The notes below the pieces were generated by a model that saw nothing but the letters and a program-made list of their open reading frames with translations, made no database searches and was not told where the DNA came from. A DNA stretch of 32,952 nucleotides, taken from NCBI GenBank assembly GCA_025937835.1, contig JAICQO010000075.1, forward strand, positions 1 to 32,952, given 5' to 3'. Made by a program: the position numbers and the translations under genes. Positions 917-32,632 of this stretch are shown here, piece by piece. The stretch is from Polyangiaceae bacterium. Its GTDB lineage: Bacteria > Myxococcota_A > Polyangia > Polyangiales > Polyangiaceae. Numbering within the stretch: position 1 is the stretch's first letter; each line of letters starts with the position of its first letter.

Positions 917-2026
917 TCAGTACGCGTTGCGGTTGGCGCGGCCCAGGACGGTGAGGAGCACGATTTTCAGGTCGAACCAGAGGCTGTAGCGGCGGATGTA
1001 TTCGAGGTCGTGAGCGACACGCTGGATCATCTTGTCGAGCGTGTCGGTTTCGCCGCGCCAGCCGTTGACCTGCGCCCAGCCGGTGATGCCCGGCTTGACC
1101 TTGTGACGCAGCATGTATTCGAGGATCTGCGTGCGGTAGTGCTGGTTGTGCGCGACGGCGTGCGGGCGCGGGCCGACCACGGACATGTCGCCGATCAGCA
1201 CGTTCAAGAATTGCGGCAGCTCGTCGAACGACGTCTTTCGCAGGAATTTGCCGAAGCGCGTGACGCGGTCGTCGTCCTTCGTGGCCTGACGAACGATCGG
1301 GCCGTCTTCAGTGACGCGCATCGTGCGGAACTTGAAGACCTGGATCTCGCGGCCGCCGCGGCCATAGCGTCGCTGGCGGAAGAACACCGGCCCCGGCGAG
1401 CTCAGCTTGACCCCGGCAGCGAGCGCCGCGAGCAGCGGCAGCCCGCAGGCCAGCACCGCCGCCGAGAACAACACGTCGAACCCGCGCTTGCCGAGGCCGT
1501 CGATGCCCTCGGCCGCGTGGACGCAAAGATCGGCGACGTCTTCGCGAGACAGCGACAACGACAACACGAGCGCGACCAGGTAGCGCTCCTCTTCGAGGTC
1601 GAAGGCGTTGTCCGCGTCGCACACCTGACGCACGAGCTCGACCACGTGACGGCGCTCGGGCGGCGGTAAACGCTGCAGCACGTCAGCCACCTTCGTGAGC
1701 TCGAATTGGTTGGGATCGAACGACTCGATCCGCTCGTCCAGCCAGGCGGGCAGCTCGTTCGTCGACAGCAGGCGCCCCATCAAGCGGCGGATCGCACGCA
1801 GCTCGCGCGGGCAGGCGTCTCCGTCCGCGTGGGCCGCCGCGAGCAGCGCATCGGCGAGCGCACGGACGTACTCCTCCTCGGCAGGCGGCGGCATCGAGCT
1901 GGGCCGGAGCGCCGTCAAGCGGTAGGCGCGCGGCCCCGAGGACGGCGGCGGAACCGTCATCGACTCGCGATACGGGGCCTCCGAAGCACGGGTCGTGTCC
2001 CAGAATTCGTTCGCGGGACCTGGCAT
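917..2026 (-). CDS. TerB-like domain fused to a monotopic phosphoglycosyltransferase (bacterial sugar transferase)
   Basis: The C-terminal half (about residues 178-369) is a bacterial sugar transferase of the WbaP/WecP type. This family moves a sugar-1-phosphate from a UDP-sugar to undecaprenyl phosphate at the inner membrane, the first step of surface polysaccharide synthesis. Visible motifs are KRGFDV with the re-entrant hydrophobic helix at 180-206, SPGPVFFRQ, KFRTM, the catalytic Asp-Glu pair in SFDELPQFLN (D268, E269), SVVGPRP and KPGITGWAQVNG. The N-terminal half (about 50-175) has no membrane segments. It resembles a TerB fold, with AAAHADGDACPRELRAIRR and later CDADNAFDLEEERYL as two acidic helix repeats. 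The usual four-helix N-terminal region of WbaP-like enzymes is absent. ATG at 2026 is chosen because TAGCCT lies 9 nt upstream; Met23 is an alternative. Confidence 0.88.
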   Translation of the reverse strand: MPGPANEFWDTTRASEAPYRESMTVPPPSSGPRAYRLTALRPSSMPPPAEEEYVRALADALLAAAHADGDACPRELRAIRRLMGRLLSTNELPAWLDERIESFDPNQFELTKVADVLQRLPPPERRHVVELVRQVCDADNAFDLEEERYLVALVLSLSLSREDVADLCVHAAEGIDGLGKRGFDVLFSAAVLACGLPLLAALAAGVKLSSPGPVFFRQRRYGRGGREIQVFKFRTMRVTEDGPIVRQATKDDDRVTRFGKFLRKTSFDELPQFLNVLIGDMSVVGPRPHAVAHNQHYRTQILEYMLRHKVKPGITGWAQVNGWRGETDTLDKMIQRVAHDLEYIRRYSLWFDLKIVLLTVLGRANRNAY

Positions 2027-25292: not shown

Positions 25293-25490
25293 TCGACCTC
25301 CATGTAGGTTTGGAGGGGTCGTAGATGCCATGATGGTCCGACCCGTCAAACCGACCCCCGACCCAGTGTCGCCAACTCGGCACGAACGCACGGAAATCAG
25401 AAATGGCACGCTGATTGCTTATCAGCGACTTGGGCCATTCTCGCCGTGGAACAGTGAGAGGGGGATTCTTCACCCTGAAGGGTAGAGCGC

Positions 25491-25525
25491 GCAGCGAGGA
25501 GCTCATCGAGGAAGCTCCTCGCTGC
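25491..25525 (-). terminator. Strong hairpin after the methyltransferase gene
   Basis: Perfect 13-bp stem, GCAGCGAGGAGCT (25491-25503) with AGCTCCTCGCTGC (25513-25525), and a 9-nt loop. On the minus strand it comes 13 nt after the methyltransferase stop. There is no T-run, so termination is probable rather than certain. The sequence GCGCGCAGCGAGG at its edge also occurs near repeat copy B (32642-32654). Confidence 0.55.
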
Positions 25526-25538
25526 GGCCGTTCCTTGC

Positions 25539-27873: not shown

Positions 27874-30123
27874 TCAGCTTGCCTGCCCCGGTGAGCGCGG
27901 CGACGACAGCCCGAGGCGCGCCATCCAGCGGTAGACCTGGGCGCGCGTGGTGCCGAGGCGCCGCGCAGCTTCCGAGACGTTGCCGTCGCAGTCTCTGAGC
28001 AGGCTGTCGAGCGCGTCGCGGTCGCGCAGCGGATCGCGGGCAGCGACCAACCCGGACGGGCCAATGGCCACGGGCGCGGGAGCGGCCTGCGGCGCCGTCT
28101 GCCCGCGGTCGACCGGCGCCGCCATGGCCGGACACAGACGGTGCAGCTCCGAAGACGTGAGCTGCGCGCCGTTCGTGGCCATCGCGCACCAGCGGTGGAT
28201 CAGGTTCTCGAGCTCACGCACGTTGTACGGCCAGGACCAGAGCAGAAGCGACTCGGCGGCATCCGGCGCGAGGTTCAGGCGATGCCCCTGTTGCGTCGCG
28301 AACAGCGCCGCGAGCTCGAGCACCTCTTCGCGCCGCTCGCGGAGAGGAGGCAGCTCGATCGGCACCTGCGCGAGGCGCGCATAGAGGTCGGCGCGGAAGC
28401 GACCGTCGGCGACGGCGTCGTCGAGCCGCACGTTGGTCGCGGCGATCACACGCACGTCGACCGGCTGCTCTTCGTCCGCTCCGACGGGACGGATCGCGCG
28501 TTGCTGGAGCGCCCGCAACAAGAGCGGCTGAAGGTGGATCGGCAGCTCGCCGATCTCGTCGAGCAGCAGCGTGCCGCGCTCGGCCGCCTGAAACACGCCG
28601 CGGCGCGCGCCGGTCGCGCCGGAGAACGCGCCGCGCGTGTGCCCGAACAGCTCAGAAGCGGCGAGCTCGCGCGGCAGCGCCCCGCAGTTCACCGGGACGA
28701 ACGGGCCCGGGCGCTCGCTCGCGGCGTGAATTTCACGCGCGATCACCTCTTTTCCGACGCCGGTCTCGCCCTGCACCAGCACGGTGGTCAGCGAGCGCGC
28801 GGTGCGCTGGACGACCTCGCGCGCGATCTGCATGCGCGAGCCGTGGATCACGACCAGCACGCTGTCGCCGATCCGGAGCACGTCACCGTGGCCGAGGCGC
28901 GCGGAGCTCTCGCGCACGCCGTTGACGCGGATGCCGTTGCGGCTCTGCAAGTCCATCGCACGGTAGCACCCGAAGCGATCGTCCCAGACCACCCGCACGT
29001 GGCGGCGCGAGACGCGGCCGTCGGCGATGGACCAGCCCACGTCGCCGACGTCACGGCCGATCACGAGCTCGCCCTTGATCGGCAGCACCTGGTTGCGCAG
29101 CGTCCCGAGGTCGGGCCCGCTCACGAGCCTGAGCAGCGTGGGCGTCACCGCCTGCTGCGCGTAGCCGATCGCGTTCTGCTCGGTGGTCGACGGGTTCTTC
29201 GACCAGGTGGACATCGTGGTCGCGGCCTGGTCGCGGACGGTGCCGGGCGGAGCGGACGCACCGAGCAGCGCCGCGCGCATCTCGAGCGCGGACGGAAAGC
29301 GCTGGTTGGGGTCGAGCGCGAGCGCCCGATCGATCGCCAGCACCAACTCGCGCGGCAGATCACGCGCCACGCTGGCCACCGAACGGGCTGGCCGTTCCCG
29401 CGCGGCGCGAGCCTGTTCTTCGGGCGTCCCCTCGTGGACGTGGCGGCCGGAGGCGAGCGTGAACAGCGCCGCGCCGACGGACCAGAGATCCGCGCGCGGA
29501 TCGCGCTCGGCGTCTGGGTGGTGCAGGCGCTCGGGCGCCGTGAACGCGGGCGAGCCGTAGATCGACGGGCACTCGGCCGGCGGCAAGCAGCCGTTCACGC
29601 CGAAGTCGAGCACGCGCAGCTCGCCGCTCTCCGTCAAGAACAGGTTCGACGGCTTGATGTTGCGGTGCGTGAGCCCGACGCCGTGCGCGGCGACCAGAAA
29701 CTCGAGCAGCGCCGAGCCGAGCTCGCACACCTCGTGTGGGGGTAAGAGCCCTCCGACGCGCGTGCGATGGGTCTCGAGATCGCAGCCCACCAGCCAGTCC
29801 GCGGCGAGCCAGGGAATGCCACCCTCGACCACACCATGATCGAGCAGGCGCGGCAGCGCGCGGTGTGAGAAGCGCGACAACTCGGACAACTCCCGTAGGA
29901 AGCGGCCGATGGCGGTCGGCTCGGCGAGCGGCGTCGATAGGAACAACTTGAGCGCGACCACGCCGCCGTCGGGCCCGAAAGCGCGATACGTCGAGGCTCG
30001 CCGTCCGACGTGCATCAGCCGCTCGAGCCGAAAGCTCGAGACCAGGGTCCGAGGACCGGTCGGATGCGGGGCGGTCGGCATCTCGCGCACCTCAAACTGA
30101 CCTATCCTCGCCGGAAATTCCAC
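27874..30123 (-). CDS. Pseudokinase-like + FHA + sigma-54 AAA+ activator + Fis-type HTH fusion
   Basis: A 749-residue cytoplasmic regulator with four domains in order. (1) Ser/Thr kinase-like domain, about 30-290: VALK Lys59, Glu78 in the C-helix, DFG at 173-175 and the APE segment are present, but the catalytic HRD is HRN (Asn155) and the glycine loop is degenerate. (2) FHA domain, about 350-425, with GR, SRRH and NG phosphothreonine-binding marks. (3) Sigma-54 AAA+ domain, about 430-660: Walker A GETGVGKE (452-459), GAFSGA (498-503) in place of GAFTGA, Walker B LLLDEI (519-524), RADLYARL. (4) Fis-type HTH, 703-738 (GNVSEAARRLGTTRAQVYRW). The start is GTG 30123 with GGAA upstream; ATG at residue 15 has GAGGTG. 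It lies between the ubiB-like gene (29 nt) and the metallopeptidase (4 nt). Confidence 0.93.
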   Translation of the reverse strand: MEFPARIGQFEVREMPTAPHPTGPRTLVSSFRLERLMHVGRRASTYRAFGPDGGVVALKLFLSTPLAEPTAIGRFLRELSELSRFSHRALPRLLDHGVVEGGIPWLAADWLVGCDLETHRTRVGGLLPPHEVCELGSALLEFLVAAHGVGLTHRNIKPSNLFLTESGELRVLDFGVNGCLPPAECPSIYGSPAFTAPERLHHPDAERDPRADLWSVGAALFTLASGRHVHEGTPEEQARAARERPARSVASVARDLPRELVLAIDRALALDPNQRFPSALEMRAALLGASAPPGTVRDQAATTMSTWSKNPSTTEQNAIGYAQQAVTPTLLRLVSGPDLGTLRNQVLPIKGELVIGRDVGDVGWSIADGRVSRRHVRVVWDDRFGCYRAMDLQSRNGIRVNGVRESSARLGHGDVLRIGDSVLVVIHGSRMQIAREVVQRTARSLTTVLVQGETGVGKEVIAREIHAASERPGPFVPVNCGALPRELAASELFGHTRGAFSGATGARRGVFQAAERGTLLLDEIGELPIHLQPLLLRALQQRAIRPVGADEEQPVDVRVIAATNVRLDDAVADGRFRADLYARLAQVPIELPPLRERREEVLELAALFATQQGHRLNLAPDAAESLLLWSWPYNVRELENLIHRWCAMATNGAQLTSSELHRLCPAMAAPVDRGQTAPQAAPAPVAIGPSGLVAARDPLRDRDALDSLLRDCDGNVSEAARRLGTTRAQVYRWMARLGLSSPRSPGQAS

Positions 30124-30152: not shown

Positions 30153-31541
30153 TCAGCTGCCGGATTGACCCGGCGTGCGGCCGCCGTTCTGCACGCCGTC
30201 GGCCGGCTCGGGGTGTGAGCCCCCGCCGGGGACCGGAATCACGAAGCCTCGAGCGAAGACCCGAGAAGCATGGGGCAGGACGAGCCCCGGCAACCCCGTG
30301 CGCGGGGCGAGCTGCCCGACCAGCCCGAACAACAACGCGAGCGTCCGCTCCACGTAGAAGTAGCCCTCCGGGTACTCGACGCTGCGCATGATCTCCCGCA
30401 AGCGACCGCGGATCTGGCGATAGCCCGAGAGCTTCTCGACCACGTCGCGGTCGAGCTTCGAGAAGTCTTCGATCTTCACCGTCGACAGCGCCCGTAAATA
30501 CTCACGCCCGATGCGCTTCAAGAGCTCGCGGTCGCCGCCTTCCGCGACGAAACCCATGCGCTCGAGCCCTGCCAGGATCTGATCGTCGTTTCGGGTGATG
30601 GCTCCGAGCACCACCGTGCGCATGCCCTCGGCGAGCGGAGCCGTGACGTCCTCGACCGCGCCGTAGTCGAGGATCACGAGGGTGGGCCCGGGGCGCACCA
30701 GGAAATTGCCGGGGTGAGGATCTGCGTGAAAAACCCCGTGATCGAACAGCATCACGAAGTACACCTCGACCAGCAAGCGCGCCACCGCGTCCGGATCGAC
30801 GCCTTGCTCTCGCTGCGCGCCGACGTCGGTGACCTTGATGCCCTCTTCGAACGACATCGTGAGCACGCCGGCCTGGGTGAGCTCGGGGACGATCTGCGGC
30901 ACCACGACGTCGGTGCGTTGGGCGAAGATCGCGCGCACACGCTCGATGTTGCGTCGCTCATGGGCGTAGTCCGTCTCGCGCGCCAGCATGGCCTCGAGCT
31001 GATCGAGGTTGCGCTCCGCGTGCGACACCGGCACGAGCCACTTCAAGACCGGCAGGATCCAGCGCAGCACGCGCAGGTCGCGGCGGATCAACAGGTCGAT
31101 CTTCGGGTACAGCACCTTCACGGCGACTTCGCGGCCTTCCGGCGTGGTCGCGCGGTGCACCTGAGCGAGCGACGCGGCCGCGATCGGCTGCTCCGAAAAT
31201 GAGCCGAACCTCGAGCGCGCGTCCGCACCGAACGCCTCGATCAAGCGCCCTTCGATCTCGGAGAACGGCCGAGGCGGCACGCGATCTTGGAGCTTCTCGA
31301 GCTCCTCCGCGTAGGCGGCAGGCAAGAACGTACCCATCACGCTCAGCACCTGCCCGACTTTGATGAACACGCCGCCGAGCGACGAGAAGCCGAGCATCAG
31401 TCGTCGGGCGTTGCGCCGGTGTGCGCGCTCCGAACGTCGCGCGACGCGCTCTGCCGAGAGCACTCGCGACAACAGCCACTCGAAGCCGTAGGACAGGAAG
31501 ACCGTCCAGAACAGAGCGAGCGCGCGGATCGAGCGAACCAC
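30153..31541 (-). CDS. UbiB/ABC1/AarF-family atypical kinase
   Basis: The 462-residue protein shows all UbiB-family marks: a KxGQ motif (FIKVGQ, 61-64), the Ala-rich loop AAASLAQVH (121-129), Lys142 in VAVKVLYP, the catalytic-loop-like HADPHPGN (272-279) and the DYG (292-294) in place of DFG. Members are ATPases or kinases of the membrane that support quinone and lipid metabolism. An N-terminal hydrophobic segment (about 8-25) fits membrane association, and the C-terminal region has further hydrophobic stretches. The start is GTG 31541 with TAGGCT exactly 9 nt upstream. It is the first gene of the minus-strand run and lies 29 nt before the kinase-like regulator. The quinone role is inferred; no other ubi genes are here. 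Confidence 0.93.
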   Translation of the reverse strand: MVRSIRALALFWTVFLSYGFEWLLSRVLSAERVARRSERAHRRNARRLMLGFSSLGGVFIKVGQVLSVMGTFLPAAYAEELEKLQDRVPPRPFSEIEGRLIEAFGADARSRFGSFSEQPIAAASLAQVHRATTPEGREVAVKVLYPKIDLLIRRDLRVLRWILPVLKWLVPVSHAERNLDQLEAMLARETDYAHERRNIERVRAIFAQRTDVVVPQIVPELTQAGVLTMSFEEGIKVTDVGAQREQGVDPDAVARLLVEVYFVMLFDHGVFHADPHPGNFLVRPGPTLVILDYGAVEDVTAPLAEGMRTVVLGAITRNDDQILAGLERMGFVAEGGDRELLKRIGREYLRALSTVKIEDFSKLDRDVVEKLSGYRQIRGRLREIMRSVEYPEGYFYVERTLALLFGLVGQLAPRTGLPGLVLPHASRVFARGFVIPVPGGGSHPEPADGVQNGGRTPGQSGS

Positions 31542-31675: not shown

Positions 31676-32632
31676 ATGAAGATCCTGCTGGCCGACGATG
31701 AACCGATTGCACGCACCATGCTTCAGCATTGGCTGACTGGGTGGGGTTACACGGTCATATCGGTCAAAGACGGCGAAGCGGCGCTCGAAGCCCTGAAAAA
31801 TGACCCGGAGATCCGCCTGGCGGTGCTCGACTGGGTGATGCCCAAGGTCGACGGCGTCGAGGTCTGCCGGCACATCCGCAGCGGTCAGAGCGAGCCCTAC
31901 ATCTACGTCCTGCTGCTCACGGCTCGCGACAACAAGACGGACATCGTCGATGGGCTCGACGCGGGCGCCGACGACTACCTGATCAAGCCCTGCAATCCGC
32001 TCGAGCTCAAGGTGCGGCTGCGAGCTGGGCGGCGCGTGGTGGAGCTCCAGGAGGAGCTGGTCGCCGCGCGCGAGAAGCTTCGCTACGAGGCCATGCACGA
32101 CGGCCTCACCGGCCTGCTCAATCGACGCGCGGTACTGGATCAGCTCGACCGCGAGCTGTTGCGCGCCGGCCGCAGCGGAAATCCGGTTGCCGTGATGATG
32201 GGCGATCTCGACCACTTCAAGGCCGTGAACGACACCTTCGGTCACGCCGCGGGCGACGCGGTCTTGAGGGAAGCTGCGAGCCGGATCAAGAGCTGCGTGC
32301 GCGCCTACGACTCGCTCGGGCGCATCGGCGGCGAAGAGTTTCTGTGCGTGTTGCCCGAGTGCACCACTGCCGTGGGTTACACCGTCGCGCAGCGGATCGG
32401 CGCGGCGCTCTCGCAAACGCCGCTCGCGACCCCGAACGGACCGGTGCCCGTGACGATCAGCCTCGGCGTCGCCTCCACCGAGCAGACCGGCGAAACCACC
32501 GCAGAAGGCCTGGTCCGCGCAGCCGACGCCGCCCTCTACCGCGCCAAGGCCGCCGGCCGCGCCCGCGCCGCCCTCGCCACCCCCGTAGACTTCGTTCTGC
32601 GACGGAGCGGCGAGCTCCTCGCCATCCAGTAA
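31676..32632 (+). CDS. Response regulator with GGDEF diguanylate cyclase domain (PleD-like, single receiver)
   Basis: The 318-residue protein has an N-terminal receiver (1-120) with the acidic pocket ADDEP, phospho-acceptor Asp52 (LDWVMPKVDG) and Lys104 (LIKP). A short coiled linker (about 122-137, VELQEELVAAREKL) leads to a GGDEF domain (about 138-300). The active-site motif is GGEEF (218-222), which is catalytically competent in other proteins, and RAYD (209-212) five residues before it is an inhibitory c-di-GMP site (RxxD). It should therefore make c-di-GMP when phosphorylated and be product-inhibited. No partner histidine kinase is adjacent. ATG 31676 has only a weak upstream purine tract. 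A purine-rich repeat follows the stop. Confidence 0.95.
   Translation: MKILLADDEPIARTMLQHWLTGWGYTVISVKDGEAALEALKNDPEIRLAVLDWVMPKVDGVEVCRHIRSGQSEPYIYVLLLTARDNKTDIVDGLDAGADDYLIKPCNPLELKVRLRAGRRVVELQEELVAAREKLRYEAMHDGLTGLLNRRAVLDQLDRELLRAGRSGNPVAVMMGDLDHFKAVNDTFGHAAGDAVLREAASRIKSCVRAYDSLGRIGGEEFLCVLPECTTAVGYTVAQRIGAALSQTPLATPNGPVPVTISLGVASTEQTGETTAEGLVRAADAALYRAKAAGRARAALATPVDFVLRRSGELLAIQ

Follow-up and report, generated by a model that had tools for sequence, protein, structure and literature searches.

The stretch of DNA analysed here (the window; 32,952 nucleotides from a Polyangiaceae bacterium) carries on its reverse strand, at positions 27874-30123, a gene for a protein of 749 amino acids that joins a kinase-like domain, a linker, an FHA domain, a sigma-54 AAA+ ATPase and a Fis-type HTH. 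The reading frame begins with GTG, and an alternative ATG start lies 14 codons past it. All five Pfam domains of the protein exceed their own cut-offs: Pkinase at residues 40-276 (75.1 bits, cut-off 31.7), FHA (PF00498) at residues 354-419 (45.7 bits), Sigma54_activat (PF00158) at residues 428-590 (200.4 bits), AAA_lid_14 at residues 595-662 and HTH_8 (PF02954) at residues 702-736 (25.5 bits). These matches confirm the one-polypeptide architecture that a first-pass annotation of the sequence had proposed.

From Pfam and a structure model, the kinase-like domain can be delimited to residues 30-288 (29260-30036, reverse strand like all features of this gene). The FHA domain (residues 346-425; 28849-29088) retains the phosphothreonine-pocket residues G356-R357, S372-R373-x-H375 and N396-G397 and stands directly before the AAA+ ATPase (residues 426-662; 28138-28848), where Walker A (GETGVGKE), the GAFTGA-type loop (here GAFSGA), Walker B (LLLDEIG) and NVREL are all found. 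The HTH, assigned by Pfam, is the predicted DNA-binding output (residues 698-741; 27901-28032). A NorR model also matches residues 429-740 with 297 bits, which is below its own cut-off of 476. With the features of a sigma-54 enhancer-binding protein (EBP) and of its FHA type in place, and rpoN present in the genome, the protein is predicted to be an FHA-type EBP, and thus an activator, with a Hanks-type kinase domain fused to it.

Directly upstream on the same strand, across a gap of ~30 bp, lies a UbiB/ABC1-like gene (30153-31541) with which the fusion gene is probably co-transcribed; this neighbour is conserved at 79% identity beside the closest orthologue, L011 (a public record whose protein is identical to that of genome G004). 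Divergent from the pair is a gene for a response regulator-GGDEF (RR-GGDEF) protein (31676-32632, forward strand), and in L011, too, the order is RR-GGDEF, UbiB, fusion and downstream gene. A search for a sigma-54 promoter upstream of the fusion gene and its UbiB neighbour returned no convincing site. Elsewhere in the window, an exact sigma-54 -24/-12 consensus, TGGCACGctgaTTGCT, occurs at 25404-25419 on the forward strand, where two genes of the reverse strand leave a space between them. It precedes no gene on its own strand, but an inverted repeat, GCAGCGAGGAGCT...AGCTCCTCGCTGC, is located ~70 nt downstream (25490-25527). The site is a candidate promoter for a sigma-54-dependent small RNA, or a chance occurrence; exact matches number 15 in the genome against 4 in a control. 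The window further encodes a bacterial sugar transferase with an N-terminal TerB/DUF533-like region (917-2026, reverse strand).

Central to the interpretation of the fusion is its catalytic loop, HRNIKPSN at residues 153-160. As the first-pass annotation had noted, Asn replaces the catalytic Asp in H153-R154-N155 (CAC CGC AAC; 29659-29667), where orthologues have GAC or GAT, and the other motifs it listed as retained are indeed there: K59 (VALK), D173-F174-G175 and A196-P197-E198, along with the alpha-C Glu E78, the catalytic-loop Asn N160 and D212. Among the features of an active Hanks kinase, the domain thus has the beta-3 Lys, the alpha-C Glu, the catalytic-loop Asn and the DFG Asp. It lacks the catalytic Asp, which is D in 4/4 aligned orthologues, and the activation-loop Thr: the segment between DFG and APE (residues 176-195; 29539-29598) measures 20 residues against 24-25 in the HRD orthologues, i.e. 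it is 4-5 residues shorter, and the conserved (L/I)TG Thr is gone. A DNA pattern search of the whole genome found a single HRN catalytic loop, the present one, against 106 HRD loops, and none in a reversed control, which argues against a chance match. Pseudokinases are defined by a missing K, HRD-Asp or DFG-Asp (PMC12599244), and here the second of these is replaced (D155N). Three further changes, V45T, T108A and E109D, fall in the adenine pocket and the hinge, so that the domain may no longer bind ATP.

The glycine loop, in turn, had been taken as another sign of lost activity. It is degenerate, reading H-V-G-R-R-A-S-T (HxGxxA for GxGxxG), but this is no peculiarity of the window protein: HxGxxA is common to the HRD-bearing orthologues of the genus, and an A at the third glycine is already common in the wider HRD-bearing subfamily. 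The loop is therefore uninformative on the loss of activity, and we dropped it as a pseudokinase mark. The fold itself appears intact. Modelled from an alignment with 34 kinases, the domain forms a complete bilobal kinase (pLDDT 91.6) whose closest solved folds are PknB and PknA (best Z 31.8 over 253 residues, rmsd 2.2), in line with the profile search, in which the best NCBIfam kinase model is likewise of the PknB/PknA type. A full-length AlphaFold2 model built from five sequences reached a pLDDT of 63 and a pTM of 0.38, values too low for contacts between the domains to be interpreted.

Orthologues were sought in 97 related genomes. Full-length proteins of the same architecture are present in three same-genus genomes (G004, G003 and G001, the latter two represented by L040 and L041) at 54-61% identity, and a further genus (G049) carries more distant full-length fusion copies. 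All have HRD, in the loops HRDVKPQN, HRDIKPTN, HRDIKPAN and HRDISPNN, so HRN is specific to the window species and cannot be a conserved trait of the architecture. The fusion, regarded as unusual when first noticed, is hence real but not unique, the more so as G127 and G128 encode another (see below). Of the two orthologue features that the first-pass annotation had named as counting against its reading, the survey found one, HRD; the orthologues share the altered glycine loop. Nor is HRN a single mutation, given 43 kinase-specific changes, as follows.

In a leave-one-out comparison, each of four proteins was scored at sites where the other three agree. The kinase domain of the window protein has changed at 43/144 such sites (30%), compared with 6.5-9% in the orthologues; HRN is thus not a lone mutation. 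Set against L011 at positions identical in L040 and L041, the window protein shows 43 unique changes to 9 in the kinase domain (p=2e-6), yet 2 to 4 in the FHA domain, 10 to 12 in the AAA+ ATPase and 0 to 2 in the HTH, indicating that these other parts have evolved normally. Branch lengths repeat the picture: 0.78 for the window and 0.29 for its sister in the kinase tree versus 0.25 and 0.31 for the activator part. Likewise, identity to L011 is 55% in the kinase domain, 72% in the AAA+ ATPase and 79% in the neighbouring UbiB protein. A swap for some other kinase does not account for this pattern, as the window kinase groups with that of G004 (93/81) inside the clade of fused kinases (99/96).

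The changes are distributed unevenly within the domain. In the activation segment, 7/10 conserved sites have changed (P=0.008). By contrast, 17/18 kinase hallmarks are kept, the catalytic Asp alone being changed, which is fewer losses than the rate of the domain predicts (P=0.010). Values of pN/pS, which are rough because synonymous sites are near saturation, range from 0.57 to 0.63 in pairs with the window kinase and from 0.33 to 0.40 among orthologues, all below 1. Together, these data suggest that selection has ceased to act on catalysis but still acts on the fold and on some of the nucleotide site; the pattern best fits a recent pseudokinase. The pseudokinase proposal of the first-pass annotation is thus supported, and strengthened by a rate change and a loss in the activation segment that are confined to the kinase domain.

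Where the fusion came from is suggested by its unfused relatives. By its activator part, the window protein falls in a 16-member clade that a clear score gap (454 to 397 bits) sets off from other FHA activators. Six members are fused to a kinase, counting L043, one of two G049 copies, which is split by a frameshift, and ten are unfused. Eight of the ten adjoin a separate Ser/Thr kinase gene, in arrangements from a few bases between frames (L082, L084) up to divergent or convergent genes ~2 kb apart. The 6.9-Mb genome of the window species has 106 kinases, roughly one every 65 kb, so this adjacency is far above chance. Six of the partner kinases share the subfamily of the fused kinase (support 100/98), which suggests that the fusion joined an already existing kinase/FHA-activator pair, and the paired and fused forms together are evidence that such kinases and such FHA activators work together. 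In the kinase tree the six fused proteins group together (99/96); in the activator tree they do so with weak support (83/46). A second fusion, in the 13-Mb genomes G127 and G128, is placed elsewhere in both trees and, on this phylogenetic ground, is independent of the window type. In some fusions it is the activator part that has changed. L042 (G049 C203) is a kinase-FHA-AAA+ fusion without GAFTGA, and L068 and L069 (G127/G128) have RNALPGA in place of the sigma-54 contact loop, so these three proteins may not activate sigma-54; as their kinases keep HRD, they may represent a mirror image of the window case.

The other HRN kinases found are scattered, and the idea that they form a connected set associated with FHA activators found no support: where the neighbouring genes were inspected, the majority of these kinases are not close to any FHA activator. 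The exception is a convergent pair in G127 and G128, in which a stand-alone HRN kinase with DVG for DFG (L107, L108) has an FHA sigma-54 activator ~34 bp away; the two make up a putative second, unfused pseudokinase/FHA-activator pair. Other HRN loops occur in proteins that carry two kinase domains in tandem on one chain (L088, L089, L090); in G003 and G007 the first domain has HRN and the second HRD, and in G002 both have HRN. Finally, the stand-alone HRN kinases L104 and L105 (G114/G119) belong to the same subfamily as the fused kinase and have T or A for the glycine-loop valine. This resembles V45T of the window protein, and the change in the adenine pocket is possibly convergent.

FHA domains bind phosphothreonine, and the pocket residues are invariant among the fused proteins. 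A candidate ligand lies in the linker N-terminal to the FHA domain, where the window protein has TTE at residues 313-315 (29179-29187), with T313-T314 as the conserved TT. This motif was noticed post hoc in a tail that is otherwise poorly conserved; it is present in 13/16 clade members, with 5.9 expected from shuffles, and absent in 3/16. In a separate set of outgroup activators, it was found in 12/20 against 6.7 expected (P=0.006), and other doublets tried before the FHA domain gave a smaller excess or none. Given that OdhI and GarA have a TT at this place, we infer that the FHA domain recognises a phosphothreonine whose phosphate now comes from another kinase. The earlier suggestion that the FHA domain reads the output of the kinase domain agrees with the gene pairs and with conservation of the TT, but in the window species a different kinase would need to provide the phosphate.

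Taken together, we favour the reading, with a probability of about 0.58, that the protein is a pseudokinase-bearing, fused form of a two-part kinase/FHA-EBP switch whose phosphate comes from other kinases. The gene would combine the two parts of a myxobacterial switch, a Hanks-type Ser/Thr kinase and an FHA-type sigma-54 EBP, and the fusion, the orthology, the loss specific to one lineage, the normal evolution of FHA, AAA+ and HTH and the pairing with kinase genes that underlie this view are read directly from the sequences. In the ancestral form, as represented by the orthologous sequences, the kinase would phosphorylate a Thr, plausibly in the linker TT, and the FHA domain would bind it in the same or a neighbouring subunit. 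Binding would thereby control how the AAA+ subunits oligomerise (ring assembled or released), and the ring would then remodel sigma-54 polymerase and activate transcription. In the window species alone, the catalytic Asp and the activation-loop Thr have been lost from a kinase domain that retains its fold and the K/E/N/DFG nucleotide site. The phosphate would then have to come from one of the ~100 other kinases of the cell, and the pseudokinase may serve as a docking site or as an inhibitory scaffold or brake. More tentatively, and in a reading that is somewhat less likely than not, the findings can be generalised to a phosphothreonine sigma-54 switch that recurs in one- and two-gene form among the myxobacteria of this family, has the TT tail as the self-ligand of its FHA domain and was fused at least 2 times, the window kinase having become an allosteric scaffold or a decoy for a kinase acting in trans.

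Several other explanations need to be weighed against the favoured one. The kinase domain might be a decaying vestige, jobless in the window species and drifting under relaxed constraint while the FHA activator works without it, and its 30% of unique changes, raised pN/pS and shortened activation segment are what drift would produce. Yet the region runs through ~260 codons with no stop or frameshift, its GC3 of 0.87 equals that of the remaining gene, pN/pS stays below 1, nearly all hallmarks survive and the model is that of a confident, complete kinase fold, so that we regard decay as unlikely. An error of sequencing or assembly at codon 155 could be supposed, given that AAC and GAC differ by one base and that the assembly consists of 227 contigs; it is scarcely credible here, because no base-calling error gives 43 in-frame changes and a shortened activation segment in one domain.

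The remaining two alternatives grant the domain a function of a different kind. It could be a ligand sensor, a role named in the first-pass annotation; the kinase-like fold would bind a nucleotide or some other ligand and control the AAA+ ATPase directly, with no phosphothreonine step. Retention of the fold and of K59, E78, N160 and D173 would suit such a role, but the conserved phosphothreonine pocket and the linker TT point to a phospho-switch, the adenine-pocket positions V45T and T108A have changed and no ligand is known; we consider this sensor rather improbable. HRN kinases can keep weak activity, ERBB3 being an example, and residual phosphotransfer might suffice for autophosphorylation of the linker Thr in cis, at the high local concentration that results from fusing kinase and substrate. 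All residues of the nucleotide and metal site save the Asp are present for this, whereas the lost activation-loop Thr and the domain-wide acceleration would be unexpected if catalysis were still selected, which makes continued activity quite improbable.

The Ser/Thr kinases of myxobacteria run into the hundreds and their FHA-type sigma-54 activators are numerous, but to our knowledge most of these activators have yet to be matched with the kinase that drives them. The fused proteins and adjacent gene pairs offer ready-made partner assignments together with a testable candidate phospho-site. Moreover, judging from their sequences, the window species and its close relatives would constitute a natural on/off experiment, i.e. 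a switch with its kinase off beside close orthologues that keep theirs on. The value of the locus thus lies in partner assignment, a candidate phospho-site and a comparison between close species. A literature search, thin on older work on myxobacterial kinases, found no paper on a kinase-FHA-sigma54 fusion, and we do not put the architecture itself forward as new.

Among known systems, the nearest are the FHA-type EBPs of Myxococcus xanthus, reportedly described by Jelsbak, Givskov and Kaiser in 2005. They share the FHA–sigma-54 AAA+–Fis HTH order and are thought to respond to Ser/Thr phosphorylation; the window protein differs in the complete kinase-type domain fused in front, and within its own activator clade the kinase usually has a gene to itself beside that of the activator. 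EBPs of the NtrC/NorR type also have the AAA+ ATPase and HTH, with a receiver, GAF or NO-binding sensory part instead of kinase plus FHA. Compared to the Hanks-type kinases PknB and PknA, its closest match in fold and profile, the window domain has Asn for the catalytic Asp, no activation-loop Thr and no membrane or PASTA part.

In OdhI, the FHA domain binds Thr14/15 of the tail in front of it when these residues are phosphorylated (PMC2784874). The window protein shares with this actinobacterial OdhI/GarA switch the FHA domain and a TT in a short tail before it, here a candidate phosphorylation site; the outputs differ, being enzyme inhibition in OdhI/GarA and, by prediction, sigma-54 transcription in the window protein. 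As for bacterial pseudokinases, the ActPs2 family combines HRD to HRN with Lys to Arg and a DFG deletion (PMC12599244), and with K59 and DFG 173-175 present, the window kinase does not belong there. A functional parallel may be found in the ActPs3 family, where the MviN (MurJ) pseudokinase, once phosphorylated by PknB, recruits the FHA protein FhaA (PMC12599244, PMC6180346). There, as presumably in the window protein, a pseudokinase is linked to an FHA domain and another kinase supplies the phosphate. MviN, however, is a membrane protein without K, HRD and DFG whose FHA partner is a separate protein, whereas the window protein keeps K and DFG and has its FHA domain in the same chain.
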